Source: a virus
Virus record (IMG/VR): IMGVR_UViG_3300025913_000095
Span: 1-27,186 of that record
DNA: 27,186 nt
Direction: 5' to 3' (one strand)
This document shows, piece after piece, positions 5,626 to 26,168 of this stretch. Each line of letters starts with the position of its first letter. Positions within the stretch are counted from its first letter, which is position 1. Under the pieces are notes generated by a model, which was not told the origin of the DNA, did no database searches, and worked only from the letters and a program-made list of their open reading frames with translations. A program made the position numbers and the translations under genes.

Positions 5626-5645
5626 AAATTTAAATTTAGTTTAGT

Positions 5646-5903: not shown

Positions 5904-5905
5904 AT

Positions 5906-6085
5906 TTATTCTTCTTTATTACTTTTATTATGTAAATTTAACCATACTTCTTCTCTACATTCAAAACACAACCAATAATCTCTTTCTACTTCTTTTAATT
6001 CATCAAATTCACAACATTTATCACAATATCCATTTCTATCAGGTTTATAATAAAATTCTGGAGGATTTAAATCTCTTTCTAACAT
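5906..6085 (-). CDS. Small zinc-ribbon-like protein, 59 aa
   Basis: ATG at 6085-6083, TAA at 5908-5906, 59 residues. It carries two cysteine pairs spaced like a zinc ribbon: CDKCCE near residues 21-26 and CFEC at 40-43, about 15 residues apart. It lies 5 bases downstream of the ligase gene. Four Cys in a CxxC...CxxC arrangement very likely bind one zinc ion. A role in DNA or RNA binding is plausible but unproven. Confidence 0.65.
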   Translation of the reverse strand: MLERDLNPPEFYYKPDRNGYCDKCCEFDELKEVERDYWLCFECREEVWLNLHNKSNKEE

Positions 6086-6090
6086 ATTTA

Positions 6091-9983: not shown

Positions 9984-9990
9984 AATTATT

Positions 9991-13119: not shown

Positions 13120-13334
13120 ACCCCAAACTTCACTTCATCACTAAATTTAAACCATTCTTCTGGATTAATTAATAAACTAAAGTCCATTGTACTCTTATTA
13201 ATAGCTACAGCAGCTACAGGAATATCCTTACATTCTTTTTTTTCAATGGTACTCATGAATAATCCATAGAAAATATCATTTATTAAAAGTTTTTTAGATA
13301 TTTTACTAATATCTTGTATTAAATCTTGTTGCAT
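13120..13334 (-). CDS. Exon 1 of the VWA/HExxH protein
   Basis: Exon 1 encodes residues 1-71 and the first two bases of codon 72. The segment ends SDEVKFGV and in unspliced RNA runs only one codon into the intron before a TAG at 13115-13113. The N-terminus (SKISKKLLINDIFYGLFMST) is the helical start typical of VWA-like/DUF2201 proteins, and the joined sequence continues into the HEAKH motif. It overlaps the start of the 13319-13678 gene's 3' end by 16 bases. The exon pair is the MoxR partner gene. Confidence 0.88.
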
Positions 13335-13678
13335 TCTATTAATTTTAATTTCTTTTCTTCTATTAAACTATAAATCATATGAGTTCCAATTAAAAAGTTA
13401 TCTTTGTCTTTAGTTTTTAATAAATCATAGCAATTATTAAGTTCATTTTTATTTATAAAGTTTAAAACAAAACTATTTATAATAATATATTCACTTAATA
13501 AATCACTAGATATTAAAACATCTTCAGAACTTTCTAATGTCATTCTTAATTTAAGTATTCTTCTATTCCTTATTTTAAAAGACATTAAATCAAGATTTTT
13601 TAATAAAGGAACAATATCATCGTTATGTATATTTGCTATTTTAGCAAATATATTATTATATTCTTTCTTTTTACTCAT
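13319..13678 (-). CDS. Small D-N-x-x-[LI]-[AG] protein, 119 aa
   Basis: A 119-residue helical protein between PolB and the VWA gene, overlapping both (8 and 16 bases). Its C-terminal helix LLKTKDKDNFLIGTHMIYSL is a near match to SEDLDNFLIAKAIID of the 10796-11002 protein, giving the D-N-F-L-I core. The N-terminal half is predicted helix and basic. The shared motif and position on both sides of the VWA gene argue for a family that works with it; function unknown. Confidence 0.65.
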   Translation of the reverse strand: MSKKKEYNNIFAKIANIHNDDIVPLLKNLDLMSFKIRNRRILKLRMTLESSEDVLISSDLLSEYIIINSFVLNFINKNELNNCYDLLKTKDKDNFLIGTHMIYSLIEEKKLKLIECNKI

Positions 13679-15668
13679 TTTCTATTTTATTAATAATCTT
13701 CATAGCTCTATCAATATAATATTTATAACATATATTATAATCATTAATATCTTTTTCAATATATTTATTAAATATTGTTGATAACCACCCAGCTTCAATT
13801 TCAGATTCTCTAGTTCCATCATTTTCATTTCCAAATATATCTAATTGTCTAGAAATTTTCTTATTTTCAAGAGGTTTTAAGCGTTTTATAAGATGCCAAC
13901 CATTATTTGATATATAATATCTATTTATCTTTTGAAGCTTAATTTCATTCCCTTTAATAGGTTCTAAATGAATTAATCTATTAGTTCCTATAGATTTAGT
14001 TCCTAAACAAAAATCATATATATTTTTATGATTTTCAATTGTCTCTTTCACTGGAGTTTTATTAACAAAATATTCTTGTAAAGCCAATGGTATAATTCTA
14101 GCAGATCTATTTTTATGAATTTCAAAATCTGTAGTAAACTCAGATTTAGTTTTAACTTCACCATTAGTTTTAATAGCTAAATAAGAATTAACACTGGTTT
14201 GAGCTAATAATTTATAATCTTGATATTCTAATTGACCTAAAATATTATTACCAATTTTAATTTCCCACTCTTTACATATTTTATAATATAATTCTTCTTT
14301 AGATTTATCAAATAAACTAACAATACCATCTGTATTAGCTGATATTACATGAATATCATTAATTTCAAGAGATTCTATTAACATTAAAATCTCTATTTGA
14401 TTTCCAATTGTTACACACATAACTGAAAATGGTGAATATTGCCAAGAATTTTCTTCTCCTAACTTACCATATCCACCACCATTTAAAGCCAATTTATAAG
14501 CTTCTTGAATAGCTTGATATTTTCCTTCTTTAGTTTCTTTATATTTCTTTTTAGCAGATATTCTATCTTGAATAATAGATGTATAACCAACCAACCATTC
14601 CTTTCCTAAATGTTGAGGAAATAATTCCCTCTTTCTAATACTATTAGGATATTGTGAACCAATGTCTGCATCTCTAAGGATTTCATTATCAAGAGGTTTA
14701 ACTAGTCTAGGTTTATCTTCAGAATGAATTCCTCCTCTTGCTATCACATAAGTTGTTTCATTAAAAGTAAATTTAAATTCTTGTTTAGAATTATCTGTCT
14801 CTTTTTTTAATCTCACCTCTATATTTGCAAAAGCATTAACAAAGTTTTTAAACTCACTGGTTTTGAATTCCATATATTCTGGAAAACAATCTTTAAATTT
14901 AAAAGGTTGTATAATTTTATTTGGTTTAGGTAATTTTCTTTTATCTACACCAGATAATCTACAATATTTAAATTTATTAATTTCATCACCTATTTTAACA
15001 TCATTAAAATTAATACATTTAATACCAAATTCTTTTATAATATCTTTTCTTAATTGAATTTTATCAATTCCTTTATATAAAGGATGATCTGTTTCACCAA
15101 TAGTTATTTTATAAAATTCATATGTAGCATATACATCATTTAAATTATAATCTAAAATAGATTGAATTTGATGTTCTTCTATTTCATCTTCATGATGAAT
15201 TGGCATTTCTTCTATATTATGAAAATTCATAGAATATTCAACCCATTTTAAACTGGTCATTTTAGCTTTATTATCAAAATGCCAAATTTTAAATAAATCT
15301 AATTCTTTAATATTCATTTTCCATTCAGGATAATCTCCCCAACCACCTTTATTAGAATTATCAATTACTTTTTGAGCATAATTATAAATTTCTTCTGATA
15401 TTCTATCACCAAATACTAATTTTGTTAAAAAAATAGAATTTTCTAACATCCATTGAATAACCTGTCCATCAAAATTAATATTATTATATCCAATATGCCC
15501 TTTAATACTATTTAAATGAGTTTTAAGATCTTTAATATCATTTCTTGACTTATGTATTACAAATTGAACTATCTCTTTAGTATCAATACTTAAAGCAGAA
15601 TATGTGAAACAATTTTTGAGAGTTTCAATATCATATACCCAACAATTTCTATTTAATATATTTGACAT
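13671..15668 (-). CDS. polB: Family B DNA polymerase
   Basis: A 665-residue replicative polymerase. The 3'-5' exonuclease motifs are DIE at 13-15 (Exo I), NNINFD at 62-67 (Exo II) and YNLND at 174-178 (Exo III). A YxGG-like RGGIHSE lies near 311-317. The polymerase motifs are A, DIGSQYP at 335-341; B, KLALNGGGYG at 392-401; and C, NTDG at 445-448. In motif C the first Asp of the usual DTD is Asn, while the metal-binding second Asp is kept. The size is small for family B but matches the type seen in crAss-like and related phages. It overlaps its small neighbours at both ends, heading the replication operon. Confidence 0.93.
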   Translation of the reverse strand: MSNILNRNCWVYDIETLKNCFTYSALSIDTKEIVQFVIHKSRNDIKDLKTHLNSIKGHIGYNNINFDGQVIQWMLENSIFLTKLVFGDRISEEIYNYAQKVIDNSNKGGWGDYPEWKMNIKELDLFKIWHFDNKAKMTSLKWVEYSMNFHNIEEMPIHHEDEIEEHQIQSILDYNLNDVYATYEFYKITIGETDHPLYKGIDKIQLRKDIIKEFGIKCINFNDVKIGDEINKFKYCRLSGVDKRKLPKPNKIIQPFKFKDCFPEYMEFKTSEFKNFVNAFANIEVRLKKETDNSKQEFKFTFNETTYVIARGGIHSEDKPRLVKPLDNEILRDADIGSQYPNSIRKRELFPQHLGKEWLVGYTSIIQDRISAKKKYKETKEGKYQAIQEAYKLALNGGGYGKLGEENSWQYSPFSVMCVTIGNQIEILMLIESLEINDIHVISANTDGIVSLFDKSKEELYYKICKEWEIKIGNNILGQLEYQDYKLLAQTSVNSYLAIKTNGEVKTKSEFTTDFEIHKNRSARIIPLALQEYFVNKTPVKETIENHKNIYDFCLGTKSIGTNRLIHLEPIKGNEIKLQKINRYYISNNGWHLIKRLKPLENKKISRQLDIFGNENDGTRESEIEAGWLSTIFNKYIEKDINDYNICYKYYIDRAMKIINKIENE

Positions 15669-15904
15669 ATTCTTGGTTTAACTAATTTAAATATATCATA
15701 AGGATGATTATTACAACTATTATCTTCTTCTAATCTTACAAATCCATTTTTCATCCCATTTCCATTACTATTTATGTCAGATATAGTATATTTCCAATGT
15801 TCTTCTAAGAAAGGAGAAGAATACATTTTTACTTCTTTATAAAATGATTTATCAAATAAAGACTTATCAATAACTACTATATCACCAATTTTAAATTTGT
15901 TCAT
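15653..15904 (-). CDS. Small SH3-like protein ending in CQIY (IQIY-tail set)
   Basis: An 83-residue protein directly upstream of PolB, overlapping its start by 16 bases. The N-terminus FKIGDIVVID has the look of an SH3/KOW-like barrel start (x-G-D-x-V strand), followed by short strands and WKYTISDI. It ends KPRICQIY, the most divergent copy of the tail shared by eight small proteins in this window (Cys for the second Ile). The role is unknown; the tail may be a docking signal. Confidence 0.65.
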   Translation of the reverse strand: MNKFKIGDIVVIDKSLFDKSFYKEVKMYSSPFLEEHWKYTISDINSNGNGMKNGFVRLEEDNSCNNHPYDIFKLVKPRICQIY

Positions 15905-16082
15905 TTTCTTTTAATTTTAAATAAATCTTTTGCATTGTAACCTTATCATCTTTAGTATATGTATTCCATTCTCCACCATATAATAGAAATAATCTAGTAT
16001 TATTAAAAGCATGAACTACATAAGCTGTAAATATTATTGCAAATACAAATGGTAATACTATTATTCTTGTTATATATTTCAT
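15891..16082 (-). CDS. Small single-pass membrane protein, 63 aa
   Basis: A 63-residue protein with a basic N-terminus (MKYITR) and a hydrophobic segment IIVLPFVFAIIFTAYVVHAF at about 8-27, so probably one transmembrane helix with the C-terminus outside or in the periplasm. It overlaps the 15653-15904 gene by 14 bases and the gene upstream by 4 bases. No family recognised. Confidence 0.6.
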   Translation of the reverse strand: MKYITRIIVLPFVFAIIFTAYVVHAFNNTRLFLLYGGEWNTYTKDDKVTMQKIYLKLKENEQI

Positions 16083-16309
16083 TTTATATTATATTTTTTT
16101 AATATTTTAATTAAATATGTATAATCATTATTAACTTCTTTTGGATTTTGTTTTATATTATCTGGTTCATAATATTCTCCATTATTTGCAGGACAAGTCA
16201 TAATATTTATCTTCCTATGAGGACCATTACAATTTAAAGTTCTATATTTACACTCATCACAAGCTTTCATTTGATTACCAGATGGATGCTTAACTAATAC
16301 TTCCATCAT
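16079..16309 (-). CDS. Small cysteine-rich protein, 76 aa
   Basis: A 76-residue protein with Cys spacing CDECKYRTLNC near residues 17-27 and a further Cys in MTCPANNGEYY. The pattern C-x2-C-x6-C then C about 12 later suggests a metal-binding site or short Zn finger, with a conserved-looking GPHRK between. The remainder is a short helix. Gene overlaps on both sides (ATGA) imply coupled translation. Confidence 0.6.
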   Translation of the reverse strand: MMEVLVKHPSGNQMKACDECKYRTLNCNGPHRKINIMTCPANNGEYYEPDNIKQNPKEVNNDYTYLIKILKKYNIK

Positions 16310-16575
16310 ATTAAAAAGTTTATATTATTATCGTTAATATTTGATTCTTTCTCTTGTTCATTATAATCATTAATTAAACTGTGTACATTTTCAATTAATT
16401 GTTTAAGCTTTCTATTCTTAAACTTTAAATTTCTATTATTAAGAATATCTAAACTTTCATCATATAATTCAATTGGCATTTTATTATATAATTCAAGTTT
16501 AGCTTTCTTAATTTCTTTTAAATTAATTAAATTTAATGCTATTTCATAATGATTTTTTATTAAATTTTCATTCAT
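16306..16575 (-). CDS. Helical protein, 89 aa
   Basis: An 89-residue helical, charged protein (NHYEIALNLINLKEIKKAKL; NRKLKQLIENVHSLINDYNE). It may form a short coiled coil. It lacks the D-N-x-x-[LI]-A motif of the replication-operon set. It shares its last base with the start region of the next gene. No family recognised. Confidence 0.6.
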   Translation of the reverse strand: MNENLIKNHYEIALNLINLKEIKKAKLELYNKMPIELYDESLDILNNRNLKFKNRKLKQLIENVHSLINDYNEQEKESNINDNNINFLI

Positions 16576-16868
16576 TAATATATCTGTATTATCTCTTTTT
16601 CTTTATAATTAGTTAATGTTTTATATTTATTAAACCAATTAATTTCTTTTTTTGCAGCAAGTCTTTGTGGTATTCCACAATAATTATTTTTAACCTCTCC
16701 ATAAGTATTATTAATTAAAACACCACCTTCAGAAAAATAAGTTTCTAATGATTCAAAATATAACACAGGAGTACTAAACTTACCATGTAAGGATATAGCT
16801 TTTCCCATAGTCTTTTTACCACTAGGCCAAGTTCTAACTATAAAATCATTTTCTTTTATTTTATTCAT
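16575..16868 (-). CDS. Small protein ending in IIQIY, 97 aa
   Basis: A 97-residue protein starting MNKIKENDFIVRTWPSGKKT, an SH3-like beta start with a short basic loop, and ending KEKEIIQIY. The codons of the last four residues are ATA CAG ATA TAT, differing at synonymous sites from its neighbours, so the tail is kept as protein rather than DNA. The stop overlaps the next gene's start region. No catalytic residue pattern visible. Confidence 0.65.
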   Translation of the reverse strand: MNKIKENDFIVRTWPSGKKTMGKAISLHGKFSTPVLYFESLETYFSEGGVLINNTYGEVKNNYCGIPQRLAAKKEINWFNKYKTLTNYKEKEIIQIY

Positions 16869-17071
16869 TAATAAATTTGTATTATTTTATTAGATTCATT
16901 TAAATTTCCTTTATATATCCAGCTTCCATTATTAATATTCCTTTGAATTGCTTGTTGATTCCAACCACTAAAAATTTTATATTTAGTAGTTTTAAACTTT
17001 TTATCAGGATCATATAAATATTTATCTTTATCTATTAAAATAATAGAACCTTCTTTAATTATATCATTCAT
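16868..17071 (-). CDS. Small protein ending in IIQIY, 67 aa
   Basis: A 67-residue protein: IIKEGSIILIDKDKYLYDPD is an SH3-like beta start, then KTTKYKIFSGWNQQAI, and the tail NESNKIIQIY. The tail codons are ATA ATA CAA ATT TAT. It touches the 16575-16868 gene by one base; both carry the tail, so they are adjacent members of the same set. No family assigned. Confidence 0.65.
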   Translation of the reverse strand: MNDIIKEGSIILIDKDKYLYDPDKKFKTTKYKIFSGWNQQAIQRNINNGSWIYKGNLNESNKIIQIY

Positions 17072-17237
17072 TTTCTTTTAATGTTTGATTATTATTAACT
17101 ACAAAAACTTTATCTGAATTAATTTCAAATCTAGGTAAACAATGAATTCCTTCTTTTAAATACAATTCTTTTTTAATAAATTTTCCATACTTCTTTAAAT
17201 CTTTAGCTTTTACTTGTTTATAGTCTATTTCTAACAT
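17064..17237 (-). CDS. Hypothetical protein, 57 aa
   Basis: A short frame: ATG at 17237-17235, TGA at 17066-17064, 57 residues. It starts MLEIDYKQVKAKDLKKYGKF and contains GIHCLPRFEINSDKVFVVNN. It overlaps the next gene by 8 bases. It fills the gap between the 16868-17071 and 17249-17560 genes, which is otherwise empty. No family recognised. Confidence 0.55.
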   Translation of the reverse strand: MLEIDYKQVKAKDLKKYGKFIKKELYLKEGIHCLPRFEINSDKVFVVNNNQTLKENE

Positions 17238-17248
17238 AATTTTAGTTT

Positions 17249-17560
17249 TTATTTATTAATATTAATTTCCATATATAATAATACTTCTCTTGCTAAATGA
17301 CCATCTTCTAATATAATATTAGGCATAAAACTGTCATCTATAATCATAAAATTATCTTCATTAAAAAATAATCGCGCACCATATATTGATGTATCAATTT
17401 CTTTTAATAAATATCCTTTTCTCTTTTTAAAATCTCCATAACCAATTACTTCATATTCTTGATCTAATTTAGGAATTAAGTAATCATCTCCAACTAATTT
17501 AATAGCTTTTAAAATTTTATTCTCTTCATCAAATTTATCATTTATACATTTAACTATCAT
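17249..17560 (-). CDS. SH3-like small phage protein, 103 aa, no IQIY tail
   Basis: A 103-residue protein starting MIVKCINDKFDEENKILKAI, with LDQEYEVIGYGDFKKRKGYL in the middle. The initial V-K-C-I-N strand and the later x-x-Y-x-V strand resemble the 20368-20601 protein (AKCINKDN, then GKTYEYF), so the two may share a beta-barrel fold. Unlike that one it ends YMEININK with no IQIY tail, which makes it a useful internal comparison. The upstream Zn-finger gene overlaps it by ATGA. Confidence 0.6.
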   Translation of the reverse strand: MIVKCINDKFDEENKILKAIKLVGDDYLIPKLDQEYEVIGYGDFKKRKGYLLKEIDTSIYGARLFFNEDNFMIIDDSFMPNIILEDGHLAREVLLYMEININK

Positions 17561-17721
17561 TTACTTATATTTTTAGTATTTTTACATTTAGGATAATTAG
17601 AACATCCAAGAAAATCTATATTTGTATTGTTATTCTTTCTTAATATCCAAGTATTACCACAAGAACATTTACCATATATTTTATCAAATCTATGTTTTAT
17701 ATTATAATTCTTTTTAAACAT
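17557..17721 (-). CDS. Small topoisomerase-type C4 zinc-finger protein, 54 aa
   Basis: ATG at 17721-17719, TGA at 17559-17557 overlapping the next ATG. The 54 residues contain GKCSCGN, then FLGCSNYPKCKNT. The second half, C-x-x-Y-P-x-C-x-x-T preceded by F-x-G, is the hallmark of the C-terminal zinc ribbon of type IA topoisomerases and related nucleases. Here it is a stand-alone protein with no catalytic domain. It probably binds one zinc and nucleic acid. Confidence 0.75.
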   Translation of the reverse strand: MFKKNYNIKHRFDKIYGKCSCGNTWILRKNNNTNIDFLGCSNYPKCKNTKNISK

Positions 17722-17754
17722 TATTATAATTTTTAAATTAATAATTTAATTAAG

Positions 17755-17822
17755 CTGTCTAGATTGGACTCGAACCAATACATCTATATTCCTACGTGCT
17801 TTTTCCAGCTAGCTACTAGACA
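17755..17822 (-). tRNA. tRNA-like sequence, degenerate (anticodon not assignable)
   Basis: Strong tRNA features on the minus strand: a 7-bp acceptor TGTCTAG/CTAGACA, U8, a D-arm-like GCT..AGC with CTGG in the loop, and a perfect T-arm ATTGG-TTCGAGT-CCAAT joined directly to the acceptor strand. However only 17 bases remain for the anticodon arm and no variable loop is left. The anticodon stem does not pair well and no U33 can be placed. Total length is 68 nt with no encoded CCA. I read it as a decayed or unusual tRNA; function uncertain. Confidence 0.5.
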
Positions 17823-17834
17823 GACCATTTTATA

Positions 17835-18248
17835 TTAGTTTAAACTAAGAACTTCTTCTTGTTTTTTAACAACAGTTGTAGCCAATACATGACCTTGTTG
17901 TTTAAGAATAGTTTCTAGTTTCTCTCCTCTAAGTAATATTAGAGAATAACTATCTACCATTCTCTCTCCAACTTGATAAGGAACTACTTTTACATTTAAA
18001 AATTGACCAGGAATTTCCCTGTTTTCAGCAATAAATTGTTTCATTATTGAAGGATCCCCTGATTTCCAAATACAATCTGTTCCAGCATCATTTACATGAG
18101 ATTGAAACACATTCCTTTGACGCATTTCAGCTAAAGGATTATTTGGATCCATAAAATAAAGTGTATAAAATTGACGGTTTTTCTTTGTGTCTTTAATTCT
18201 TTTTTCTGTTTTAATTTCAGACATTCTAATTGGTTTTACTGTTTCCAT
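17835..18248 (-). CDS. Possible ssDNA-binding protein, 137 aa
   Basis: A 137-residue protein preceded by a roughly 200-bp non-coding leader, which suggests it is strongly and separately expressed. The core NRQFYTLYFMDPNNPLAEMR, then RQRNVFQSH and IPGQFLNVKVVPYQVGERMV, reads like the strands of an OB fold, with a basic N-terminus (TEKRIKDTKKN). The position next to replication genes would suit a single-stranded DNA-binding protein. There is no acidic SSB tail; the end is VKKQEEVLSLN. The OB/SSB idea is inference with modest support. Confidence 0.55.
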   Translation of the reverse strand: METVKPIRMSEIKTEKRIKDTKKNRQFYTLYFMDPNNPLAEMRQRNVFQSHVNDAGTDCIWKSGDPSIMKQFIAENREIPGQFLNVKVVPYQVGERMVDSYSLILLRGEKLETILKQQGHVLATTVVKKQEEVLSLN

Positions 18249-18447
18249 AATGTTTTTGTTTTTTTGTTATATTTTATTATTTTTTATGATAATTTATTAT
18301 CATTTACACTTATATTTATAATGCCATAAGTTTCACATTTGTCCTTATTTTAAAGATATAGACTAATATCTATTAATAATATACAATTACAACTATCTCT
18401 GTGGTTTGTCCCATCTATATAGAGAATTTATATATTATTTAATACTT
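18249..18447 (-). promoter_or_regulatory. Structured 5' leader of the 17835-18248 gene
   Basis: About 200 bases without a gene. On the minus strand it contains a short hairpin AGATATTAGTCTATATCT (near 18353-18370), the segment CTCTATATAGATGGGACAAA with a matching AGAG further on, and a T/A-rich tract before the ATG. It probably holds the promoter and untranslated leader of the following gene. I cannot identify a specific -33/-7 promoter with confidence. Confidence 0.4.
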
Positions 18448-18537
18448 TTATAATTTGGTTAAAAACCAAAAAAATGCAATACAGACTATTGTTAAACAAA
18501 ATGTTTCTACTATTTCTATAATTACTTCATTTGTCAT
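18448..18537 (-). CDS. 29-residue membrane peptide
   Basis: ATG at 18537-18535 overlaps the lipoprotein gene's TGA (ATGA) and TAA is at 18450-18448. The peptide MTNEVIIEIVETFCLTIVCI continues as a hydrophobic stretch ending WFLTKL, so it should form one transmembrane helix. The exact stop/start overlap is the reason to accept a frame this short. Its role is unknown. Confidence 0.5.
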   Translation of the reverse strand: MTNEVIIEIVETFCLTIVCIAFFWFLTKL

Positions 18538-18743
18538 TTAATTGTATCTCCTATATAATATTTTTTGTTTGTGAAGTAATTTAATCCTCCTTCTAAATGA
18601 ACTATGTATCTATAGCCACTATAAACAGAATTATTAGTTTTATTATTAGTCTCAATTCCTGTAATCACCAATGGACTTAACATAAAACTTTCACAAGAAC
18701 ATAAAAATATTGCTAATAATACCACTAATATTTTTGTTTTCAT
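18534..18743 (-). CDS. Small lipoprotein, 69 aa
   Basis: A 69-residue protein with a clear lipoprotein signal: basic MKTK, hydrophobic ILVVLLAIF, then lipobox LCSC with the lipidated Cys at about 17, followed by ESF. The mature part is about 53 residues, polar with short strands (GYRYIVHLEGGLNYFTNK). It would sit in a membrane of a Gram-negative host, consistent with Bacteroidota. A role in superinfection exclusion or cell-surface change is a possibility, not shown. It overlaps the gene upstream by 4 bases. Confidence 0.75.
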   Translation of the reverse strand: MKTKILVVLLAIFLCSCESFMLSPLVITGIETNNKTNNSVYSGYRYIVHLEGGLNYFTNKKYYIGDTIK

Positions 18744-19102
18744 TTTTCTACAGGTTTAGATTCATTCCAATTTTTCTCTATTTCTAAATTTACTTTTGCT
18801 ATTTTATCTCTATCATCTTTATATCTTTGAGAATAATAAATAGCTTTACCATAATGAGAATTTAAATTATCATTTATATACACACCATCAATGAATTTTT
18901 CTCCATCTTTCATAACTTCTATTTGATGATACCTAGTAGCATATAAACTTTCTTTAGAATTCATATAAAACCAATTCCAAGAATATAATTCTTGTCTTCT
19001 TTTTAATAATTTTGATTTCTTAGATTCTTTGAAAGCTATTAAATTACTATTTTCATCAATTTTGAAATTGACACCATTCAATGTTATTATTTCTTCACTC
19101 AT
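18740..19102 (-). CDS. Hypothetical protein, 120 aa
   Basis: A 120-residue basic protein. The start MSEEIITLNGVNFKIDENSN is a short beta hairpin, followed by helices with many Tyr/Trp (ELYSWNWFYMNSKESLYATR) and ending with a charged helix (DKIAKVNLEIEKNWNESK). No family recognised. It is 2 bases downstream of the 19105-19398 gene. Confidence 0.6.
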   Translation of the reverse strand: MSEEIITLNGVNFKIDENSNLIAFKESKKSKLLKRRQELYSWNWFYMNSKESLYATRYHQIEVMKDGEKFIDGVYINDNLNSHYGKAIYYSQRYKDDRDKIAKVNLEIEKNWNESKPVEK

Positions 19103-19104
19103 AG

Positions 19105-19398
19105 TTAATATATTTGAATTATTTGTTTATATTGCTTAACTAAAGTAAATCTATTTTCTTTAAATGAAAGTCTAACAAATTTATTAGAATTATCTTTATA
19201 TTCTACTAAATAATCATCTTTTTGTATATCAATTATTTTAGCAAAATATTTATTATAATATTCTTTATTTATTATTAAACTTCCTCCAATAGTTAATTCT
19301 TTATTATTTCTTTTAAAAACATGTTCCCATTCACCTCCTATACGATAATCTACATCTAAATTGATAAATTTAACAATATCTCCTATTTTATATTTCAT
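19105..19398 (-). CDS. SH3-like small protein ending in IIQIY, 97 aa
   Basis: A 97-residue protein with a KOW/SH3-like start MKYKIGDIVKFINLDVDYRI and more strands (YFAKIIDIQKDDYLVEY). It ends LVKQYKQIIQIY. The tail codons are ATA ATT CAA ATA TAT. It is the clearest barrel-type member of the IQIY-tail set. It is the first gene after a terminator-like hairpin (19426-19481), so it may start its own transcription unit. Confidence 0.7.
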   Translation of the reverse strand: MKYKIGDIVKFINLDVDYRIGGEWEHVFKRNNKELTIGGSLIINKEYYNKYFAKIIDIQKDDYLVEYKDNSNKFVRLSFKENRFTLVKQYKQIIQIY

Positions 19399-19420
19399 TA
19401 ATTAATTATTAAATATTAAT

Positions 19421-19481
19421 AAAAATACAATAACCAAAACAATATATCAAATTAAATTGTAATATTATTAAGGTTATTGTA
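19421..19481 (-). terminator. Rho-independent-like terminator
   Basis: On the minus strand, TACAATAACC (19481-19472) and GGTTATTGTA (19435-19426) form a perfect 10-bp stem with a 36-base loop, followed at once by TTTTT and an AT tract. It lies between the 19547-19777 gene and the next gene, as expected for a terminator or attenuator. Confidence 0.6.
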
Positions 19482-19507
19482 TATAAATCAACTTTACCTA
19501 TTGATTT

Positions 19508-19539
19508 TGAGAACACAACATTTAAGTTGAGCACAAGAC
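19508..19539 (-). repeat. Conserved intergenic element, copy 1
   Basis: Plus-strand TGAGAACACAACATTTAAGT continues TGAGCACAAGAC. It closely matches the element at 25935-25965 and lies at the same place: just after a gene's stop and before a terminator-like hairpin. On the minus strand it contains a near-direct repeat, TTGTGCTCA and TTGTGTTCTCA, around CTTAAATG. A binding site for a phage or host factor, or a promoter, is possible. Confidence 0.5.
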
Positions 19540-19546
19540 GTTTAAA

Positions 19547-19777
19547 TTAGTAAATCTGAATTATTTTCTTTGGTTTTGATACTATTTTAGCCCATTTATC
19601 ATTATAATAAATATATTCTCCAGAATGTCCATTAATTGAAGCTAAAATAGATTCACTAGTACCAATCCAATATCTATCATTTTTTATAATATAAGTTCTA
19701 TTATTTTCAGGACTAATAAATTTAATACCAATAGGATAATCTCTTCTAGCTTTAATTAATAATTTTTCATTTGTCAT
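19547..19777 (-). CDS. Small protein ending in IIQIY, 76 aa
   Basis: A 76-residue protein: PIGIKFISPENNRTYIIKND is SH3-like, then GEYIYYNDKWAKIVSKPKK and the tail IIQIY. The tail codons are ATA ATT CAG ATT TAC, using the only Tyr TAC in the set, which stresses protein-level conservation. It is bounded by a perfect 12-bp hairpin upstream and the conserved element downstream, so it appears to be a separately transcribed unit. Confidence 0.7.
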   Translation of the reverse strand: MTNEKLLIKARRDYPIGIKFISPENNRTYIIKNDRYWIGTSESILASINGHSGEYIYYNDKWAKIVSKPKKIIQIY

Positions 19778-19790
19778 TATAATAATATAA

Positions 19791-19826
19791 AATATAAGAG
19801 AACATATTTCTACATTCTCTTATATT
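19791..19826 (-). terminator. Perfect 12-bp hairpin between genes
   Basis: AATATAAGAGAA (19791-19802) and TTCTCTTATATT (19815-19826) are perfectly complementary with a 12-base loop. On the minus strand it follows the stop of the 19836-20324 gene and is trailed by an AT-rich tract, so it is most likely a terminator or RNA-end stabiliser. Confidence 0.65.
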
Positions 19827-19835
19827 AATTAGTAA

Positions 19836-20324
19836 CTATTTATTTAAAATTTCTTTTAATGTAACACCAATACTTTCTAATCTTGCTTTCTTTTTAGCTT
19901 CTTCAGAAAGACATTCTTCTAAAGCTATTTTAGTTTTCTTTAATTTCTGTAATTCTTCTTCATGAGTTACATTAGCATATTGTTCTAAAATAGCTTCTTG
20001 CCATTCAGCAACAGTTCCACCTTCTTCTATATACTCTTTCAATTGTATTGGAGATACAGCAAGAAATTTATCTCTATTTTCTTCAATTGCTGCACCTTTT
20101 TTTGTAATATAAGCATATAATTCTTGAAGTTTATTAACATCTTTAACTTCTGAAAGAGTTTCTCCCATTAATTGACCACTAAGTCTTGATTTTTTCTCTT
20201 TACTGCCTGTTAATTGAGAAATTCTTTCAGTAATTTGTTTTAACATTGCTGGAATTCCTTCTTCAGTAATATTAAATTGTCCTGATAATGCTACTTCATT
20301 TGTTGCTTTTACTGTTTTTGCCAT
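19836..20324 (-). CDS. Coiled-coil phage protein, 162 aa
   Basis: A 162-residue protein, largely helical and charged. It has an N-terminal KATNEVALSGQFNITEEGIP segment, an early helix (MLKQITERISQLTG) and a C-terminal coiled coil (THEEELQKLKKTKIALEECL). It resembles conserved hypothetical proteins of Bacteroidota phages but I cannot name a function. It is the largest protein in the accessory small-gene region and ends at a strong hairpin, so it may be expressed on its own transcript. Confidence 0.65.
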   Translation of the reverse strand: MAKTVKATNEVALSGQFNITEEGIPAMLKQITERISQLTGSKEKKSRLSGQLMGETLSEVKDVNKLQELYAYITKKGAAIEENRDKFLAVSPIQLKEYIEEGGTVAEWQEAILEQYANVTHEEELQKLKKTKIALEECLSEEAKKKARLESIGVTLKEILNK

Positions 20325-20367
20325 AATTGTTTTTTGTTTTTAATTGTTATTATTTAATTTAAAATTC

Positions 20368-20601
20368 TTAATAAATTTGTATTACTCTTTTAATTGGTTT
20401 AATTGATTTAATTGGTTTAAAAAATTCTAAAAATTTCATCTTAGAAAAACCCAAACTATTACCACTATTTGAATACCCATTTTCTATTCCATCGTTTTCT
20501 ATCCAACTATAATTATTATTTTCTTTAATAAAATATTCATATGTTTTACCAATAGTTAAATCTTTATTATCTTTGTTTATACATTTAGCATATAACTTCA
20601 T
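20368..20601 (-). CDS. SH3-like small protein ending in VIQIY, 77 aa
   Basis: A 77-residue protein. LYAKCINKDNKDLTIGKTYE is a typical small phage beta-barrel start, with EYFIKENNNYSWIENDG following, then a repeated basic linker (FFKPIKSIKPIKR) before the tail VIQIY. The repeated KPIK linker holds the tail away from the barrel, as expected for a flexible docking peptide. Tail codons are GTA ATA CAA ATT TAT. Confidence 0.7.
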   Translation of the reverse strand: MKLYAKCINKDNKDLTIGKTYEYFIKENNNYSWIENDGIENGYSNSGNSLGFSKMKFLEFFKPIKSIKPIKRVIQIY

Positions 20602-20897
20602 AAATCTATATAATAAAATAGTTTAAATCCAAATATACCTCTTAGAAATCCAATTACTAATAATTTATTGGCCAAATTAGTTTCTTGATAATATCTAATA
20701 TAAATAATATCACCAATAAACTTTATTATTTGTTTTTTATAATTTAATATTAAACCAAATAAACCTAATCCTATTATATAACTCCCACCAATAAACAATA
20801 ATATTTGGTCTATTAAATCTAGATTTTTAAATAAGAATGGCATAAACCAAGCCCATATACCTATTGCTATTATAATTAATAATTTATTTGTTTTCAT
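20598..20897 (-). CDS. Membrane protein with about two to three TM helices, 99 aa
   Basis: A 99-residue protein: KLLIIIAIGIWAWFMPFLF is the first membrane helix, DQILLFIGGSYIIGLGLFGL the second, and the C-terminal GFLRGIFGFKLFYYIDL may be a third or an amphipathic helix. Its stop overlaps the next gene's ATG (ATGA). No family recognised; an inner-membrane location is likely. Confidence 0.6.
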   Translation of the reverse strand: MKTNKLLIIIAIGIWAWFMPFLFKNLDLIDQILLFIGGSYIIGLGLFGLILNYKKQIIKFIGDIIYIRYYQETNLANKLLVIGFLRGIFGFKLFYYIDL

Positions 20898-20899
20898 TT

Positions 20900-21061
20900 T
20901 TACTTCTTATTAAAAGCATTAATAACTCCAATAGCTAAGTTATTAGCTCTATTAAATGCTCTATTTTGATTAATTGTATTTCCTCTATATCCTGTAGAAG
21001 AAGCTAATAGAACCTTGTTTTGAACAATAATTCTAGGTCTTTTTGATGTGATTAGTGTCAT
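20900..21061 (-). CDS. Hypothetical protein, 53 aa
   Basis: ATG at 21061-21059, TAA at 20902-20900. The 53 residues start MTLITSKRPRIIVQNKVLLA and continue with SSTGYRGNTINQNRAFNRAN, then a helix. It is basic, so possibly nucleic-acid binding. The frame fills the gap between the 20598-20897 and 21073-21312 genes. Confidence 0.5.
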   Translation of the reverse strand: MTLITSKRPRIIVQNKVLLASSTGYRGNTINQNRAFNRANNLAIGVINAFNKK

Positions 21062-21072
21062 AGTTTTTAGTT

Positions 21073-21312
21073 TTAATAGATTTGTATTATTTTCTTAAAT
21101 TGATTTTTATATTCTTTTTCAGTAACTTCAATAAAATATTCTTCTTCCCTTTCATTGATAAAGTAAAGATTCTGATTAATTCTATAATTAAGATTACCTA
21201 ATGAATTATTAATTACTATACCAATATTATAAGATTGATATATAACATTCTTCATAATATAACCATTATAATTTTCTATTGCTTTTAAATATCTTATTTT
21301 AGTTATATCCAT
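21073..21312 (-). CDS. Small protein ending in IIQIY, 79 aa
   Basis: A 79-residue protein, MDITKIRYLKAIENYNGYIM followed by beta-like segments (SYNIGIVINNSLGNLNYRIN) and the acidic stretch NEREEEYFIEVTEKEY before NQFKKIIQIY. The tail codons are ATA ATA CAA ATC TAT. Its start overlaps the upstream membrane peptide gene by 14 bases. No enzymatic signature. Confidence 0.65.
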   Translation of the reverse strand: MDITKIRYLKAIENYNGYIMKNVIYQSYNIGIVINNSLGNLNYRINQNLYFINEREEEYFIEVTEKEYKNQFKKIIQIY

Positions 21313-21454
21313 ATTTGTAACATTTTATAAAAGGTATTTCTATTATTTTTGATTTAGCTTGTTCTTTGTTAATATCAGAAGTAATTAAAAATGAAGCTAT
21401 TATAACAAATAATAATATAAATATACAATTTAATAAGTTTTTAATTGTTTTCAT
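21299..21454 (-). CDS. Single-pass membrane peptide, 51 aa
   Basis: ATG at 21454-21452, TAA at 21301-21299. A basic start MKTIKNLLN leads to CIFILLFVIIASFLI (one transmembrane helix), then a polar tail TSDINKEQAKSKIIE. It overlaps the 21073-21312 gene by 14 bases. It is the first gene after the structured RNA segment at 21479-21660. Confidence 0.55.
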   Translation of the reverse strand: MKTIKNLLNCIFILLFVIIASFLITSDINKEQAKSKIIEIPFIKCYKYGYN

Positions 21455-21478
21455 TTGTTTATCATTTCTATGGTTTTT

Positions 21479-21542
21479 ACACTGGTGTAGAACAAGACTT
21501 TCAACTTCACTGTATATTTTGTTCTAACTTAACTACCAGTGT
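21479..21542 (-). ncRNA. Long two-part hairpin
   Basis: On the minus strand ACACTGGT (21542-21535) pairs with ACCAGTGT (21486-21479), and AGAACAA (21525-21519) pairs inside it with TTGTTCT (21495-21489). There are 15 pairs in two stems and a 23-base apical loop. No gene covers it. It could be a structured leader of the 21299-21454 gene, an RNA-processing site, or part of an intron remnant. Confidence 0.55.
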
Positions 21543-21618
21543 CATCAAATCTACTTATAATGCTACTATTTTCCTCTAAATCACATTGTTTAGTATAAAT
21601 ACTTAACTTTAATAGTTG

Positions 21619-21660
21619 TAGCTTTTCAGATTAATTATAAGCTGCTTCTTTGAAAAGCTA
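21619..21660 (-). terminator. 10-bp hairpin downstream of the HNH gene
   Basis: TAGCTTTTCA (21660-21651) and TGAAAAGCTA (21628-21619) form a perfect 10-bp stem on the minus strand, with a small inner AAGC..GCTT. It starts 8 bases after the HNH stop. No U-tract follows, so it may be a structural or processing element rather than a terminator. Confidence 0.5.
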
Positions 21661-21667
21661 GAAATAA

Positions 21668-22075
21668 TTAACAATATCTAGGCAAATTAGCTCTAGTTTT
21701 ATTTTTACTATATTGATTACCTGATTTCATTAAACCAATACTATAAGCATGTTTCTTGTTATCTGAATCAGAACACCATTCTAAATTATCTTTACAATTA
21801 TCTTCTTTATTCCCATTTTTATGATTTAATTGAGGCAAATTAAAAGGGTTAGGTATGAATAATTCTCCAACTAACCTATGTATTCTTAATGTTTTACTTG
21901 AATTTCCTTTAGTTACTGTAAATCTAAAATATCCAAATTTATCTGCGTTTAATTTAATTGGTTTGCCTTTTAATAAAACCTTGTTTTTAGAACATCTGTC
22001 TAAACTTCTTGCATTGCCAAAATTGCTTATTTGATATAAGTTTTCATAGTTTGGGACATCTTTCCATTGTTCCAT
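21668..22075 (-). CDS. HNH homing endonuclease with NUMOD4 domain
   Basis: A 135-residue protein: residues 3-27 (QWKDVPNYENLYQISNFGNA) are the NUMOD4 DNA-binding motif, and the HNH nuclease core follows with IHRLVGELFIPNP near 65-77, LNHKNGNKEDN near 83-93 and NLEWCSDSDN at 97-106. This is a standard phage homing endonuclease. It sits in an island with another endonuclease and structured RNA; it is bounded upstream by a terminator (22085-22122) and downstream by hairpins. Whether it belongs to an intron is unresolved. Confidence 0.88.
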   Translation of the reverse strand: MEQWKDVPNYENLYQISNFGNARSLDRCSKNKVLLKGKPIKLNADKFGYFRFTVTKGNSSKTLRIHRLVGELFIPNPFNLPQLNHKNGNKEDNCKDNLEWCSDSDNKKHAYSIGLMKSGNQYSKNKTRANLPRYC

Positions 22076-22084
22076 TTTTTACTT

Positions 22085-22122
22085 TTTTAAATAAAAACTA
22101 CTCCACCTTACAGGTAAGTAGT
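22085..22122 (-). terminator. Intrinsic terminator
   Basis: On the minus strand ACTACTTACCTGTAAGGTGG continues into AGTAGT; this folds into a hairpin with 11 pairs, one bulged G and a three-base loop, followed directly by TTTTTATTT. It lies 10 bases before the HNH start, ending the transcript that covers the structured region at 22132-22528. Confidence 0.75.
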
Positions 22123-22528
22123 GAGCTCATTTGTGTTGTAGAGCATAACCTTCTCTCTCTTGGGTTAATAATCCCTTTCTCAAGGGAACAACACATCTAA
22201 TATTTCTATTAGTATCTTTATGTAAATTAGAGTTATTCTATTGATATATAATCAATTCTTTATTCAGTATCACTACTGGCAGTTTTAAGCTTTTATAAGC
22301 CTCAATTAAGAGAAATTATTCTAGCACCTCTATCTGATTGTCCCAGATTAATTTACATCAGGATCAATGTTTAGCCTGTAATATGGCACCGCGGCTCAAA
22401 GTTGTAAAGTTTATTTTTCTCTATCTCGTAATAATGTACACTTATCCAAACTAGTATTTTTAAGCGTATATCTATTACTCCAGAGTTACCACCTTAAAGT
22501 GTTATGAGCCTTGGTATGTAAGTATAGA
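22123..22528 (-). other. Non-coding structured region between two homing endonucleases
   Basis: About 400 bases with no convincing gene. It holds a group I Q-like GGACAATCAG (22343-22334), shared word for word with the proven intron at 12972. It also holds a hairpin GAGCC...GGCT near 22397-22373, TTGAGCC and TAATTGAGGC segments like the 5' starts of known phage group I introns, and a three-way junction at 22132-22195. The elements do not assemble into a full P-Q-R-S core, and no splice sites can be set. It is probably a decayed or very divergent group I intron, but this is unproven. Confidence 0.45.
22132..22195 (-). ncRNA. Three-way-junction RNA
   Basis: On the minus strand TGTGTTGT and ACAACACA close a junction. 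One arm is TCCCTT-GAGA-AAGGGA, a six-pair stem capped by a GNRA-type GAGA loop. The second arm is TAACC with GGTTA around a 12-base loop. The perfect stems and GNRA loop indicate a real RNA fold. It could be the 3' part of a group I intron or an independent small RNA. Confidence 0.55.
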
Positions 22529-23197
22529 CTATCTGTCCATTTCTAAGTATTTTAATACTTCTTCTTCAACTTTTGAAGAAAATAAAACATTACTTTTTCC
22601 ATTTGTCTTTTTTCTAATTATAAACAATCCTTTATTATAAGTATAACCCTTTCTTTTTGATTTCCCTTTAACTTTAATCAAATTAGTTATTTCATTCCAT
22701 TGTCTTCCATTTTTAACACCAAAATGAATTTGTCTACTATAGGTTGGATAGAATAATTTAATATCTTCAGTGGATTTATTTTCTTTTATTAATTTCCAAA
22801 TATTTAACTTTTCTTCATTTGAAAATTTAGAAAACTGCCTACTCATTAATGATTTTCTTCTAATAATTTCTTCTTTAGAATAATTTTTTATTCCACTTCC
22901 TCCTAATCCACCATCAGAATTATTACAAAGATTAGGAATAATTTTTCTGTAAAAATCAATCCAATAAATTTCTTTTTCTTGCCAATTACTTTCATTACAA
23001 ATTTCTATAACTTCTATAATTGGAAGTAATCCAGAATTTATTAAATTGATTATCCAATTTAAAACATATCTTTTTCCTTTTGATTTTTTTGCTTCATATA
23101 TGTGCCCATATAATCTTCTTTTTATATTGGTTGTTTTACCAATATATCTAATTAACCCATTTGGGTCTTTTAAACAATAAATGTATATTTTTTTCAT
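22529..23197 (-). CDS. GIY-YIG homing endonuclease, 222 aa
   Basis: A 222-residue endonuclease. The N-terminal GIY-YIG module reads YIYCLKDPNGLIRYIGKTTN (residues 4-23, with YIY and YIG as the signature tyrosines), followed by IKRRLYGH and by Glu74/Glu76 in NWQEKEIYW. The C-terminal half is basic and likely binds DNA (YSRQIHFGVKNGRQWNEITN). Its start lies inside the broken gene at 23208-23352, so it appears to have inserted there with its flanking RNA. Ten bases near its stop (CAGATAGTCT) are complementary to AGACTATCTG just upstream of the gene. Confidence 0.88.
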   Translation of the reverse strand: MKKIYIYCLKDPNGLIRYIGKTTNIKRRLYGHIYEAKKSKGKRYVLNWIINLINSGLLPIIEVIEICNESNWQEKEIYWIDFYRKIIPNLCNNSDGGLGGSGIKNYSKEEIIRRKSLMSRQFSKFSNEEKLNIWKLIKENKSTEDIKLFYPTYSRQIHFGVKNGRQWNEITNLIKVKGKSKRKGYTYNKGLFIIRKKTNGKSNVLFSSKVEEEVLKYLEMDR

Positions 23198-23207
23198 ATA
23201 TATAAGA

Positions 23208-23352
23208 TGCAGAAAACATCAAAAAGGTTGCAAAAATATCTTCAGCAGATAGTCTAATTTCTTTATTTTCTATTAGTTAATCTAATATATCTCATCCAAT
23301 CATTGAAACAAGTAAATATTAAATCTGGATAAATTGTTTGTTTGATTTTCAT
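23208..23352 (-). pseudogene. Broken gene: frameshifted start of an unknown protein
   Basis: ATG at 23352 is two bases after the previous gene's stop. The frame encodes MKIKQTIYPDLIFTCFNDWM then RYIRLTNRK and stops at TAA (23265-23263). Directly after, the +1 frame continues in protein-like fashion with KEIRLSAEDIFATFLMFSA. The two halves read as one protein joined by a +1 shift at the A-rich AGAAAATAAAG. The frame then runs into the GIY-YIG gene in another frame and stops at 23150-23148. I see no clear remainder of the gene downstream. Alternatives are programmed frameshifting or a sequencing error. Confidence 0.55.
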
Positions 23353-23353
23353 A

Positions 23354-23554
23354 TTATAATTTTTTATCTATATAAAAGGCCCATGAAACTATTGTATTTA
23401 TTATAGAACCTATAATTATTATTGCTAAAGATATAAAAATTAAAAACATTTCATCTCTATCATAATTAAAAGTTTTTTGTATCCATCTACAATATAACGG
23501 AGAAAATTGAAATAACAAAAATGTTATTATTGTTGATATTATTGATTTTATCAT
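23354..23554 (-). CDS. Small membrane protein, 66 aa
   Basis: A 66-residue protein with two hydrophobic segments, IISTIITFLLFQFSPLYCRW and FLIFISLAIIIIGSIINTIV, separated by a charged FNYDRDEM turn, so a helical hairpin in the inner membrane. Its stop is one base before the next start, typical of coupled genes. Two-TM phage proteins of this size can be holins, but no adjacent lysis enzyme is present, so the role is open. Confidence 0.6.
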   Translation of the reverse strand: MIKSIISTIITFLLFQFSPLYCRWIQKTFNYDRDEMFLIFISLAIIIIGSIINTIVSWAFYIDKKL

Positions 23555-23568
23555 TTGTTTTAGTTTAT

Positions 23569-23865
23569 TTAATCATAAAATGCAGCAAATAATAGTAATA
23601 CAATAAATAATCCTATTACTATACCAATAAATATACCAAAACCAATATCATCAGTTTCTTTATAATATTCACCAATATATTCATTTTGTTTAGTTTCAAA
23701 CAAATATACTTTGTTATTATCAGATATTGTTAATACTGTATCAAATTTAGCTTCATCTTTTATTTTATCTACTAAAATAGGTAATTTATCTTGTTTTATT
23801 ATTGTTGGTTCTTGACATGATGTTACAACTAATGCAATCATGAACATAAATATAATTTTCTTCAT
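23569..23865 (-). CDS. Lipoprotein with C-terminal TM helix, possible unimolecular spanin
   Basis: A 98-residue protein. The N-terminus MKKIIFMFMIALVVTSCQEP is a lipoprotein signal with lipobox VTSC (lipidated Cys about 17). The last third, IGFGIFIGIVIGLFIVLLLF near 73-92, is a transmembrane helix. About 55 polar residues lie between. An outer-membrane lipid anchor plus an inner-membrane helix in one chain is the layout of unimolecular spanins (as in phage T1 gp11), which fuse the two membranes at lysis. The short middle segment and lack of other lysis genes keep this tentative. The two-TM protein immediately downstream (23354-23554) could be a partner. Confidence 0.65.
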   Translation of the reverse strand: MKKIIFMFMIALVVTSCQEPTIIKQDKLPILVDKIKDEAKFDTVLTISDNNKVYLFETKQNEYIGEYYKETDDIGFGIFIGIVIGLFIVLLLFAAFYD

Positions 23866-23915
23866 TTATTTTTAATTATTAATATTATTAATTACTAATT
23901 CATCTGAAGCTTCAA

Positions 23916-24314
23916 TTACCACCCATCACCATCATAACCCATATCACCCAAATTCATTCCAACTTCTTGATAGCTTTCATTTATTCCAGATTGCCATGAA
24001 TTTTCATTAGTATATGAGGATGATCTTTTGTTTGATGATTTATTAGAATAAGGTGGTTGAGATAATTCCCATTGTCTTTGATTCCAAGCTCTTTCAGCTT
24101 CTATTGCTTCATCAGCTATTTCTTTTAATTTAAGTTTTAATAATAGTTTAACTTCATCTGAAAACTGATGAGTTGTAACTGTTTTATTAAACCAATTTAA
24201 ATATTTATGTTGAGATGATATAAAATATACATTATCATCTAATAATGCTTCAATTGATAAACCTTTAAATTTACCAAATGGTATTTTATCTGTTAATTCT
24301 AATATAATTGACAT
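23916..24314 (-). CDS. DUF3820-like phage protein, 132 aa
   Basis: A 132-residue protein. Near the start, KIPFGKFKGLSIEALLDDNV followed by HKYLNWFN matches the P-F-G-K-x-K-G ... Y-L-x-W pattern of the small DUF3820-type domain often found in phages and beside exonucleases. A helical segment follows (KLLLKLKLKEIADEAIEAER). A Ser/Asn-rich linker leads to the acidic end LGDMGYDGDGW, which is similar in character, though not in sequence, to SSB C-terminal interaction tails. Function unknown; a nucleic-acid role is plausible. Confidence 0.7.
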   Translation of the reverse strand: MSIILELTDKIPFGKFKGLSIEALLDDNVYFISSQHKYLNWFNKTVTTHQFSDEVKLLLKLKLKEIADEAIEAERAWNQRQWELSQPPYSNKSSNKRSSSYTNENSWQSGINESYQEVGMNLGDMGYDGDGW

Positions 24315-24719
24315 GTTAGTTTATATATTAAGTTAATAATATAATAAGGATTATTATAATTGTAATGAATAAAAAGCTATAGTTTTGGATAATTATTATA
24401 AATTTAGAGAAAATTTCGCTAATAGAGAAAATAGATTATATGACCTACATCACTAGTCTAACTAAGAACATGACAATTCTGTGACAAATCTCTAAAATTA
24501 TATTAAAATATAACTAATTGATAATGAATAACTTAACTTATGACTAAAATAGAAGTTAAAATCTTTATTAAATCACTCATTATCAACTAATTAACTTAAT
24601 AATCAAACAATTATATATTAACATCTCAGGTTATAAGTCACTTAATAAAACAACTAATGTCCTCCTTTAATCATATAACTATTTGATTATCAATCATTCA
24701 CCAACACACTTGGTATCAT
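24315..24719 (-). other. 405-bp non-coding region with nested inverted repeats
   Basis: No gene is visible. It contains nested inverted repeats: TTGATAATGA (24518-24527) with TCATTATCAA (24577-24586), and inside it TTAACTT (24533-24539) with AAGTTAA (24553-24559). A second match, GACCTACATCACTAGTCTAA (24442-24461), equals the hairpin arm at 26228-26247 in 16 of 20 bases. On the minus strand AGGAGGAC also occurs near 24656-24664. It may hold a terminator plus a promoter, or an origin-like or RNA element. Confidence 0.5.
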
Positions 24720-24983
24720 TTAATAAATTTGAATAACTCTTTTAATACTATAATTAAAATTTAATAATTTAATTTCATCTAATGTAGCTTTTCTAATATC
24801 TTTATTATTAAAATCACATAAACATAATTCATTATTTAAAGTTTGATTTGTTTGTAAATTATTTCTCCACAAATAATCATCCATAATAAAAACATATTTA
24901 TCATTAATATATTTAAATCTAAAAATATATTCTCCATCGTTTAATGAATAATATTCACCTTTAATCATTTGATCTGCATTCAT
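24720..24983 (-). CDS. Small protein ending in VIQIY, 87 aa
   Basis: An 87-residue protein. MNADQMIKGEYYSLNDGEYI begins like the 25974-26168 protein (MNVEQLIIGKHYIYT), so these two are paralogues; beta strands follow (FRFKYINDKYVFIMDDYLW). It ends NYSIKRVIQIY, with tail codons GTT ATT CAA ATT TAT. The paralogue lacks the tail, indicating that the tail can be gained or lost as a unit. It is preceded by ATGA overlap with a membrane peptide. Confidence 0.7.
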   Translation of the reverse strand: MNADQMIKGEYYSLNDGEYIFRFKYINDKYVFIMDDYLWRNNLQTNQTLNNELCLCDFNNKDIRKATLDEIKLLNFNYSIKRVIQIY

Positions 24984-25973: not shown

Positions 25974-26168
25974 TTATAATTCTTTAATACAATTTACAAC
26001 TTCAAAATCAAATAGAGAATATGTTGTAATACTATCAGTTTCATAACATCTAAACTTATAGAATGTTAATCCATCAGATACTACACCAATATATTCAACA
26101 TGAACTTCTTCATTATTATGATTTGTATAGATATAATGTTTACCTATTATTAGTTGTTCTACATTCAT
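25974..26168 (-). CDS. Paralogue of the 24720-24983 protein without IQIY tail, 64 aa
   Basis: A 64-residue protein starting MNVEQLIIGKHYIYTNHNNE, matching MNADQMIKGEYYSLNDGEYI of the 24720-24983 protein at the M-N-x-x-Q-x-I-x-G-x-x-Y positions. It ends FEVVNCIKEL, with no IQIY. Probably a small beta-barrel. The pair gives a natural comparison for what the tail does. It is separated from upstream genes by a 16-bp hairpin. Confidence 0.65.
   Translation of the reverse strand: MNVEQLIIGKHYIYTNHNNEEVHVEYIGVVSDGLTFYKFRCYETDSITTYSLFDFEVVNCIKEL

Follow-up and report, generated by a model that had tools for sequence, protein, structure and literature searches.

Eight small proteins with a common C-terminal tail

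The stretch of viral DNA analysed here (IMGVR_UViG_3300025913_000095, 27,186 nucleotides (nt), hereafter the window) contains eight small open reading frames (ORFs), the products of which end in a common tail, [IV][IC]QIY, directly before a TAA stop codon. ORFs were predicted mechanically from ATG, and all eight genes named in the original prediction, which had been made from the letters of the window, were recovered on the minus strand. The tail reads IIQIY in five proteins (16575, 16868, 19105, 19547 and 21073; proteins are named by their first coordinate), VIQIY in two (20368 and 24720) and ICQIY in one (15653). Lengths below are in amino acids (aa).

15653..15904, minus strand: tailed protein, 83 aa, KOW/SH3-like N-terminus KIGDIVVID, tail RICQIY
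16575..16868, minus strand: tailed protein, 97 aa, tail EIIQIY; not in strain L011, where a DNA junction lies at the tail
16868..17071, minus strand: tailed protein, 67 aa, tail KIIQIY; L011 ortholog 81% identical
19105..19398, minus strand: tailed protein, 97 aa, KIGDIV N-terminus, tail QIIQIY; not in L011
19547..19777, minus strand: tailed protein, 76 aa, 'W domain' (YPxG...WAKI), tail KIIQIY
20368..20601, minus strand: tailed protein, 77 aa, tail RVIQIY
21073..21312, minus strand: tailed protein, 79 aa, tail KIIQIY; 100% conserved in strains L011 and L008
24720..24983, minus strand: tailed protein, 87 aa, 'IRxATxxEI' family, tail RVIQIY

The terminase, portal and major capsid protein of the phage corresponded to phrog_6681, phrog_6547 and phrog_11589 (E-values below 1e-100), the top matches of TerL were members of Crassvirales (34–36% identity), and by its sequence the phage is crAss-like (Crassvirales). 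A sister record, G002 (89.7 kb), carries a polymerase 100% identical to that of the window.

In a six-frame check of the window, each [IV]IQIY coincided with the end of an ORF; further QIY strings were numerous, all of them off-frame or internal and lacking the preceding [IV]I. The tail was present on exactly these 8 of the 139 ORFs of G002, none of which contained an internal IQIY, and no further [IV]IQIY was found in its 89.7 kb beyond the tailed set. When residues were drawn at random (2000 draws), a final 4-mer was common to at most two proteins. A scan of 133 loci of at least 5 kb returned only one other tail present on three proteins, YELW in a single phage, which later proved to be a second system of the same kind. 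Among the matches listed by an exact-tail search of IMG/VR, repeats of the tail occurred in this phage alone, the remaining single matches being located away from ORF ends. YYAK ends common to L060 and L073 were considered as a further tag and rejected, as by eye they looked like whole-length paralogs. Two adjacent small proteins of the window (586–729 and 1019–1396) have another C-terminal end in common, NKKLLL[VL] (TINKKLLLV and KLNKKLLLL), and form the top non-tail pair in G002.

Selection acts on the peptide

Variation at synonymous positions behind a fixed peptide had been put forward as a sign of selection on the peptide, and a codon-level test bore this out. Across the last five codons of 12 distinct bodies (window, L011 and L008) the synonymous variation was real, with a proportion of synonymous differences (pS) of 0.68 and of non-synonymous differences (pN) of 0.056 (ratio 0.08); in the five codons preceding the IQIY tail of the same bodies pN/pS was 0.97. 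Nucleotide conservation climbed at the tail and dropped to background right after the TAA stop codon. The low pN/pS of the tail, together with DNA conservation that ends at the stop, indicates that it is the peptide that is under selection.

A conserved DNA element which encodes the tail incidentally, such as the translation start region of the next gene, a recombination site or a terminator, would agree with two observations: some tails run into the start codon of the following gene (TAATG in the window, ATGGTAA in the phage L075 described below), and strain junctions often fall at tails. However, synonymous sites vary freely and the flanks are not conserved. The distance from tailed ORFs to the next gene ranges from 0 to about 400 nt, and the genes that follow 24720, 20368 and 19547 begin between 44 nt and about 400 nt away, so that the tail is more than a start region. 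We give this explanation next to no weight and, as the main cause, it is ruled out by the codon-level evidence. Since strain junctions are often found at tails, the tails may secondarily aid cassette exchange.

Related phages carry tails of their own

Relatives were located by means of the neighbouring polymerase gene, the start of which is overlapped by the tail of 15653:

13671..15668, minus strand: DNA polymerase, phrog_1252

Two further phages possessed tails of a different sequence. In L075 (record G022, 63.6 kb) four small proteins end in KIYELW, KCYELW, KIYETW and RIYELW, a pattern ([IC]YE[LT]W) found on no further protein of the G022 record. In L208 (record G026, 126.6 kb) seven consecutive small proteins end in [LMV]E.Y[KQT]IF. 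Selection on the tail was again visible at the codon level: pN/pS was 0.16 in the L208 tails vs 0.82 just upstream in the same proteins, and 0.33 in the L075 tails (four proteins only) vs 0.77 just before them. At L075 12494–12954, in consecutive tailed genes, the last codon and stop of the YELW tail (TGG TAA) share nucleotides with the ATG that starts the following gene (ATGGTAA). A member of the 24720 family located just upstream of the tailed cluster of L208 (8527–8823) ends in LERYTI, that is, the tail minus its last aromatic residue. L208 also harbours another large set of small paralogs (1030–1732, 5820–6688 and 11945–13679) with a 'PVFGID' motif near the N-terminus.

Members of the W-domain family were present in all three tailed phages, each with the resident tail (KCYELW in L075, an ETYKIF-type tail in L208). 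The same was seen for the 24720 family, relatives of which end in IIQIY (L011 8531), YELW (L075 11429, a link with an E-value of only 0.016) and YQIF (L208 9428). Two body families thus carry the resident tail in all three phages, so the tail follows the phage and not the family; it is phage-specific.

Among the 22 genomes compared, several of them partial, clusters of unrelated tailed bodies occurred in three lineages only, and no shared tails were found in crAss001, phi14:2, DAC15, cr10_1, cr52_1, cr273_1, Bohxovirus or Calle_1. Enrichment in related phages, which had been suggested as a check on the original prediction, was therefore obtained in one sense, since the phenomenon recurs in two distant crAss-like phages, but the exact IQIY tail is confined to this phage group.

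The tails could also be read as mimics of a C-terminal clamp-binding peptide, through which their bearers would dock to a replication factor such as the sliding clamp of the host. The DNA polymerases of relatives (G006, G026 and G030) end in QL[ST]LF-like sequences with the same hydrophobic/aliphatic/aromatic spacing, and the tailed cluster abuts the polymerase gene. Nevertheless, the key first glutamine occurs in none of the three tail types (I, V, T, S, N, L or C being found at that position), the polymerase of the window ends in NKIENE and has no clamp-like motif, and the tails vary between phages, while the site on the sliding clamp is conserved. Clamp docking accordingly appears improbable to us.

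Strains exchange bodies and keep the tail

Strain L011 is 96–99% identical to the window across long stretches, but BLAST found no counterpart in it for three of the eight tailed proteins (16575, 19105 and 20368). The slot of 20368 is occupied in L011 by an unrelated tailed body (5222–5482), 15653 is represented by a diverged ortholog in the same place and with the same tail (9747–10016), and 19547 and its counterpart are about 55% identical over the length of the protein. Two extra tailed proteins of L011 (8301–8531 and 8531–8812) lie at the slot of a gene that has no tail in the window:

17249..17560, minus strand: tail-less gene

Identity below 60% between window and L011 was seen for five of the eight tailed genes vs 4 of the 21 other genes in the region (p = 0.037 in Fisher's test, indicative only). 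In strain L008 a third, unrelated tailed body (6092–6355) is found at the slot of 19105. Near-identical strains exchange bodies while the tail remains constant. Replacement of the 15653 ortholog in L008 was considered and rejected, the DNA there being near-identical with an in-frame stop; this stop, around 9546–9800, is either a real mutation or a sequencing error. The DNA polymerase gene of L011 is itself a mosaic, its C-terminal part and the downstream sequence having ~96% DNA identity to the window and its N-terminal part being about 71% identical or unalignable.

The same domains are fused in tail-less relatives

Using a W-domain profile built without the tail, the domain was detected in long proteins of tail-less phages, among them G003 (369 aa), L207 (428 aa), L237 (609 aa) and L239 (564 aa), and in three copies each in an 866 aa protein of L238 and in gp61 of Cellulophaga phage Calle_1; multidomain W proteins spanned 168–866 aa. 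All 8 distinct single-domain copies were tailed, vs none of the 17 distinct multidomain copies; an intermediate count (8 vs 11) gave p = 1.3e-5 in Fisher's test, such p-values being only indicative because copies within a genome are related and not independent. The 24720 family and W domains were found together in one chain in L238 (E-value 9.5e-4) and L207 (E-value 0.004). As the same domains are fused in relatives, the usual gene-fusion argument makes it probable that the individual tailed proteins work together in a complex. In L240 a 648 aa protein (5117–7063) contains a W domain (by hidden Markov model, HMM) and barrel-like segments apparently fused, as judged by eye, to a MoxR-type AAA+ ATPase, possibly hinting at a working partner of the tailed proteins.

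The W domain of 19547 was modelled by AlphaFold2 (predicted local distance difference test, pLDDT, 92) as a helix and six strands with the tail outside the folded domain. A structure search of PDB with this domain gave nothing significant; among predicted structures of viral proteins, the nearest included some longer ones from other Bacteroidota phages. The model of 24720 was of too low confidence for use. The earlier description of the set as mostly SH3-like barrels with a basic linker before the tail consequently holds in part: a K/R-rich stretch does precede the tail in most of the eight, whereas 19547 is predicted to be a different small fold. Pfam gave no convincing match for any of the eight bodies. 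A tblastn search of GenBank phages with the tailed bodies and the candidate platform protein described below found no homologs apart from the W-domain repeats of Calle_1, and bacterial genomes yielded no relative.

Fusion also bears on the idea that the tail is a degradation or turnover signal, a hydrophobic C-terminus that would hand short-lived early proteins to a host protease. The C-terminal position, the hydrophobic end and the location of these genes, which have no assigned function, in the early region would all suit such a role. However, a host degron should be alike among phages of related hosts, and the tails differ between phages yet are fixed within each; the long fused homologs lack such a tail, as do other small proteins adjacent to the tailed ones. 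An ssrA-like degron ends in small residues (ALAA-like) and is added by tmRNA (transfer-messenger RNA), whereas these tails end in IQIY, YELW and YKIF and are gene-encoded. The original prediction had proposed a docking, targeting or degradation signal; docking or targeting is supported. Degradation we consider unlikely and rank behind assembly, given that tail-less relatives carry these domains joined in a single chain.

Genome position and possible role

In G002 the structural genes lie on one strand, and the tailed genes are located at 75.8–85.2 kb, within the variable early part of the genome, immediately upstream of the DNA polymerase. Given this position upstream of replication genes, the role of the tailed proteins is likely early takeover of the host or counter-defence.

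The same map bears on virion targeting, in which the tag would have small proteins packaged in the capsid and ejected when the next host is infected. The logic is that of the T4 capsid targeting sequence (CTS), a short terminal tag on variable bodies (PMC9026906), and crAss001 virions are reported to contain cargo proteins (PMC10172136). Against this, the cargo reported there is a large gp45–50 set, the tailed genes are on the early/replication strand, apart from virion genes, no virion protein of G002 has the tail, and the T4 signal is N-terminal. We see little chance of virion targeting being correct.

A proposed docking tag and its candidate platform

Taken together, the evidence favours, with what we judge to be an even chance of being right, a reading in which the tail serves as an exchangeable docking tag at the C-terminus: proteins made separately would be brought together by it on a putative common platform, in place of covalent fusion. 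Each of the separately translated small domains (W, IRxAT family, KOW-like and others) would be followed by a short linker and then by one and the same beta-prone peptide, of the general form [IYC]-polar-[IL]-[YFW]-COOH. The tag would bind a single common site, and the varied bodies would thereby collect, within the infected cell, on a shared platform; relatives without tails would reach the same result by fusing the domains into a single chain. Because tag and site would need to match only within a phage, the tag could drift between lineages, and new bodies could enter if they bore the resident tag. Both the common binding site and the assembly are features that we infer.

A candidate for the platform lies within the tailed cluster:

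19836..20324, minus strand: candidate platform gene, 162 aa, helical by composition, related to phrog_2574

Homologs of this gene are situated in or adjoining the tailed clusters of L075 (11746–12222) and L208 (10801–11244). The window and L075 proteins are linked with an E-value of 3e-6, those of L075 and L208 with 2e-6, and the window and L208 proteins both match phrog_2574. Of the families present in all three tailed genomes, an unbiased comparison showed this one to occur in the smallest number of tail-less genomes (2 of 18). Its identification as the platform is a guess.

Several observations weigh against the docking-tag reading. The 19836 family is not exclusive to tailed phages, being also present in tail-less G024 and G029, and the direct BLAST similarity between the window and L208 proteins is insignificant, the two being linked via L075 and phrog_2574. 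A phage can have both tags and fusion, as L075 does with a fused W protein beside its tailed ones, and domain fusion hints at a shared complex without proving one. Moreover, the tail-bearing lineages number only three, all of them metagenomic and with no named host.

An alternative form of the docking-tag idea is homotypic assembly, in which hydrophobic beta-prone tails bind each other by steric-zipper formation or beta-strand addition, without a separate platform. Sameness within a phage and freedom between phages would be expected, as seen; alternating hydrophobic residues and an aromatic end are beta- or zipper-prone, the tail resembles the VQIVYK segment of tau, and none of the candidate partners is restricted to tailed phages. 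However, the tail is strictly C-terminal and an aromatic residue comes last in every full tail, which suggests recognition of the free carboxylate, and a zipper needs none. Homotypic assembly is, in our view, rather unlikely, if a little less so than degradation, virion targeting or clamp docking.

A broader form of the docking-tag reading, which we hold somewhat more tentatively than the reading itself, is that Bacteroidota phages use private, evolving C-terminal address tags to make exchangeable small domains into one modular complex, takeover or counter-defence domains being plugged in via five residues, with tag and receptor co-diverging so that each lineage has its own code. Sameness within a phage and difference between phages would be expected if tag and receptor were encoded or selected together, and would be harder to explain by a host degron or a conserved clamp site.

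If true, one short tag would mark, from sequence alone, a whole set of co-acting phage early proteins with no assigned function, a tail pull-down would provide a handle for finding their target, and phages would be seen to add modules to a machine that they already possess, with no need of gene fusion. The rule of a shared C-terminal k-mer within one genome also offers a cheap scan applicable to all phage genomes.

Other genes of the window

A small protein without the tail showed weak similarity to the 24720 family, which suggests that the tail is modular:

25974..26168, minus strand: tail-less small protein, similar to the 24720 family (HMM E-value 0.03)

Sequence motifs of homing endonucleases (GIY-YIG, LAGLIDADG and HNH types) were recognised at 2417–3271, 12020–12856, 21668–22075 and 22529–23197, the products of the first and last being 28% identical. 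The gene at 17835–18248 has a homolog in L075 (8018–8446) and in no other genome compared.

Comparison with known systems

In keeping with the original prediction, which knew of no described system with this tail, no report of such phage-specific C-terminal tags was found in the open-access literature. As a principle, short terminal tags are already known from the T4 CTS and from encapsulin cargo peptides. The T4 CTS of IPI, IPII and IPIII is likewise a short terminal peptide on small phage proteins with unrelated, variable and exchangeable bodies. It is N-terminal, about 10 residues long, proteolytically removed in head maturation, and loads proteins into virions (PMC9026906), whereas the tail described here is C-terminal in all cases, adjoins the stop codon, belongs to early genes and bears no indication of being cleaved or of loading virions.

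Encapsulin cargo-loading peptides are short C-terminal peptides on differing proteins that share a common receptor (general knowledge; see also PMC8346489). A C-terminal peptide on varied proteins is present here too, its targeting role being putative, but the tail differs between related phages. No gene for an HK97-fold encapsulin shell was recognised near the tailed genes, though not every neighbour was profiled; the capsid gene of the phage lies elsewhere.

The clamp motif QL[SD]LF has a similar C-terminal hydrophobic-polar-aliphatic-aromatic pattern, but its defining glutamine is in no tail, and the tails occur on four to eight proteins of unassigned function per phage. The dockerin-cohesin pairs of cellulosomes (general knowledge) resemble the present system in having a lineage-specific C-terminal docking module on different proteins, with the same domains fused in other organisms; a dockerin, however, is a folded extracellular domain of about 70 residues, and the tail is a five-residue peptide in a phage.

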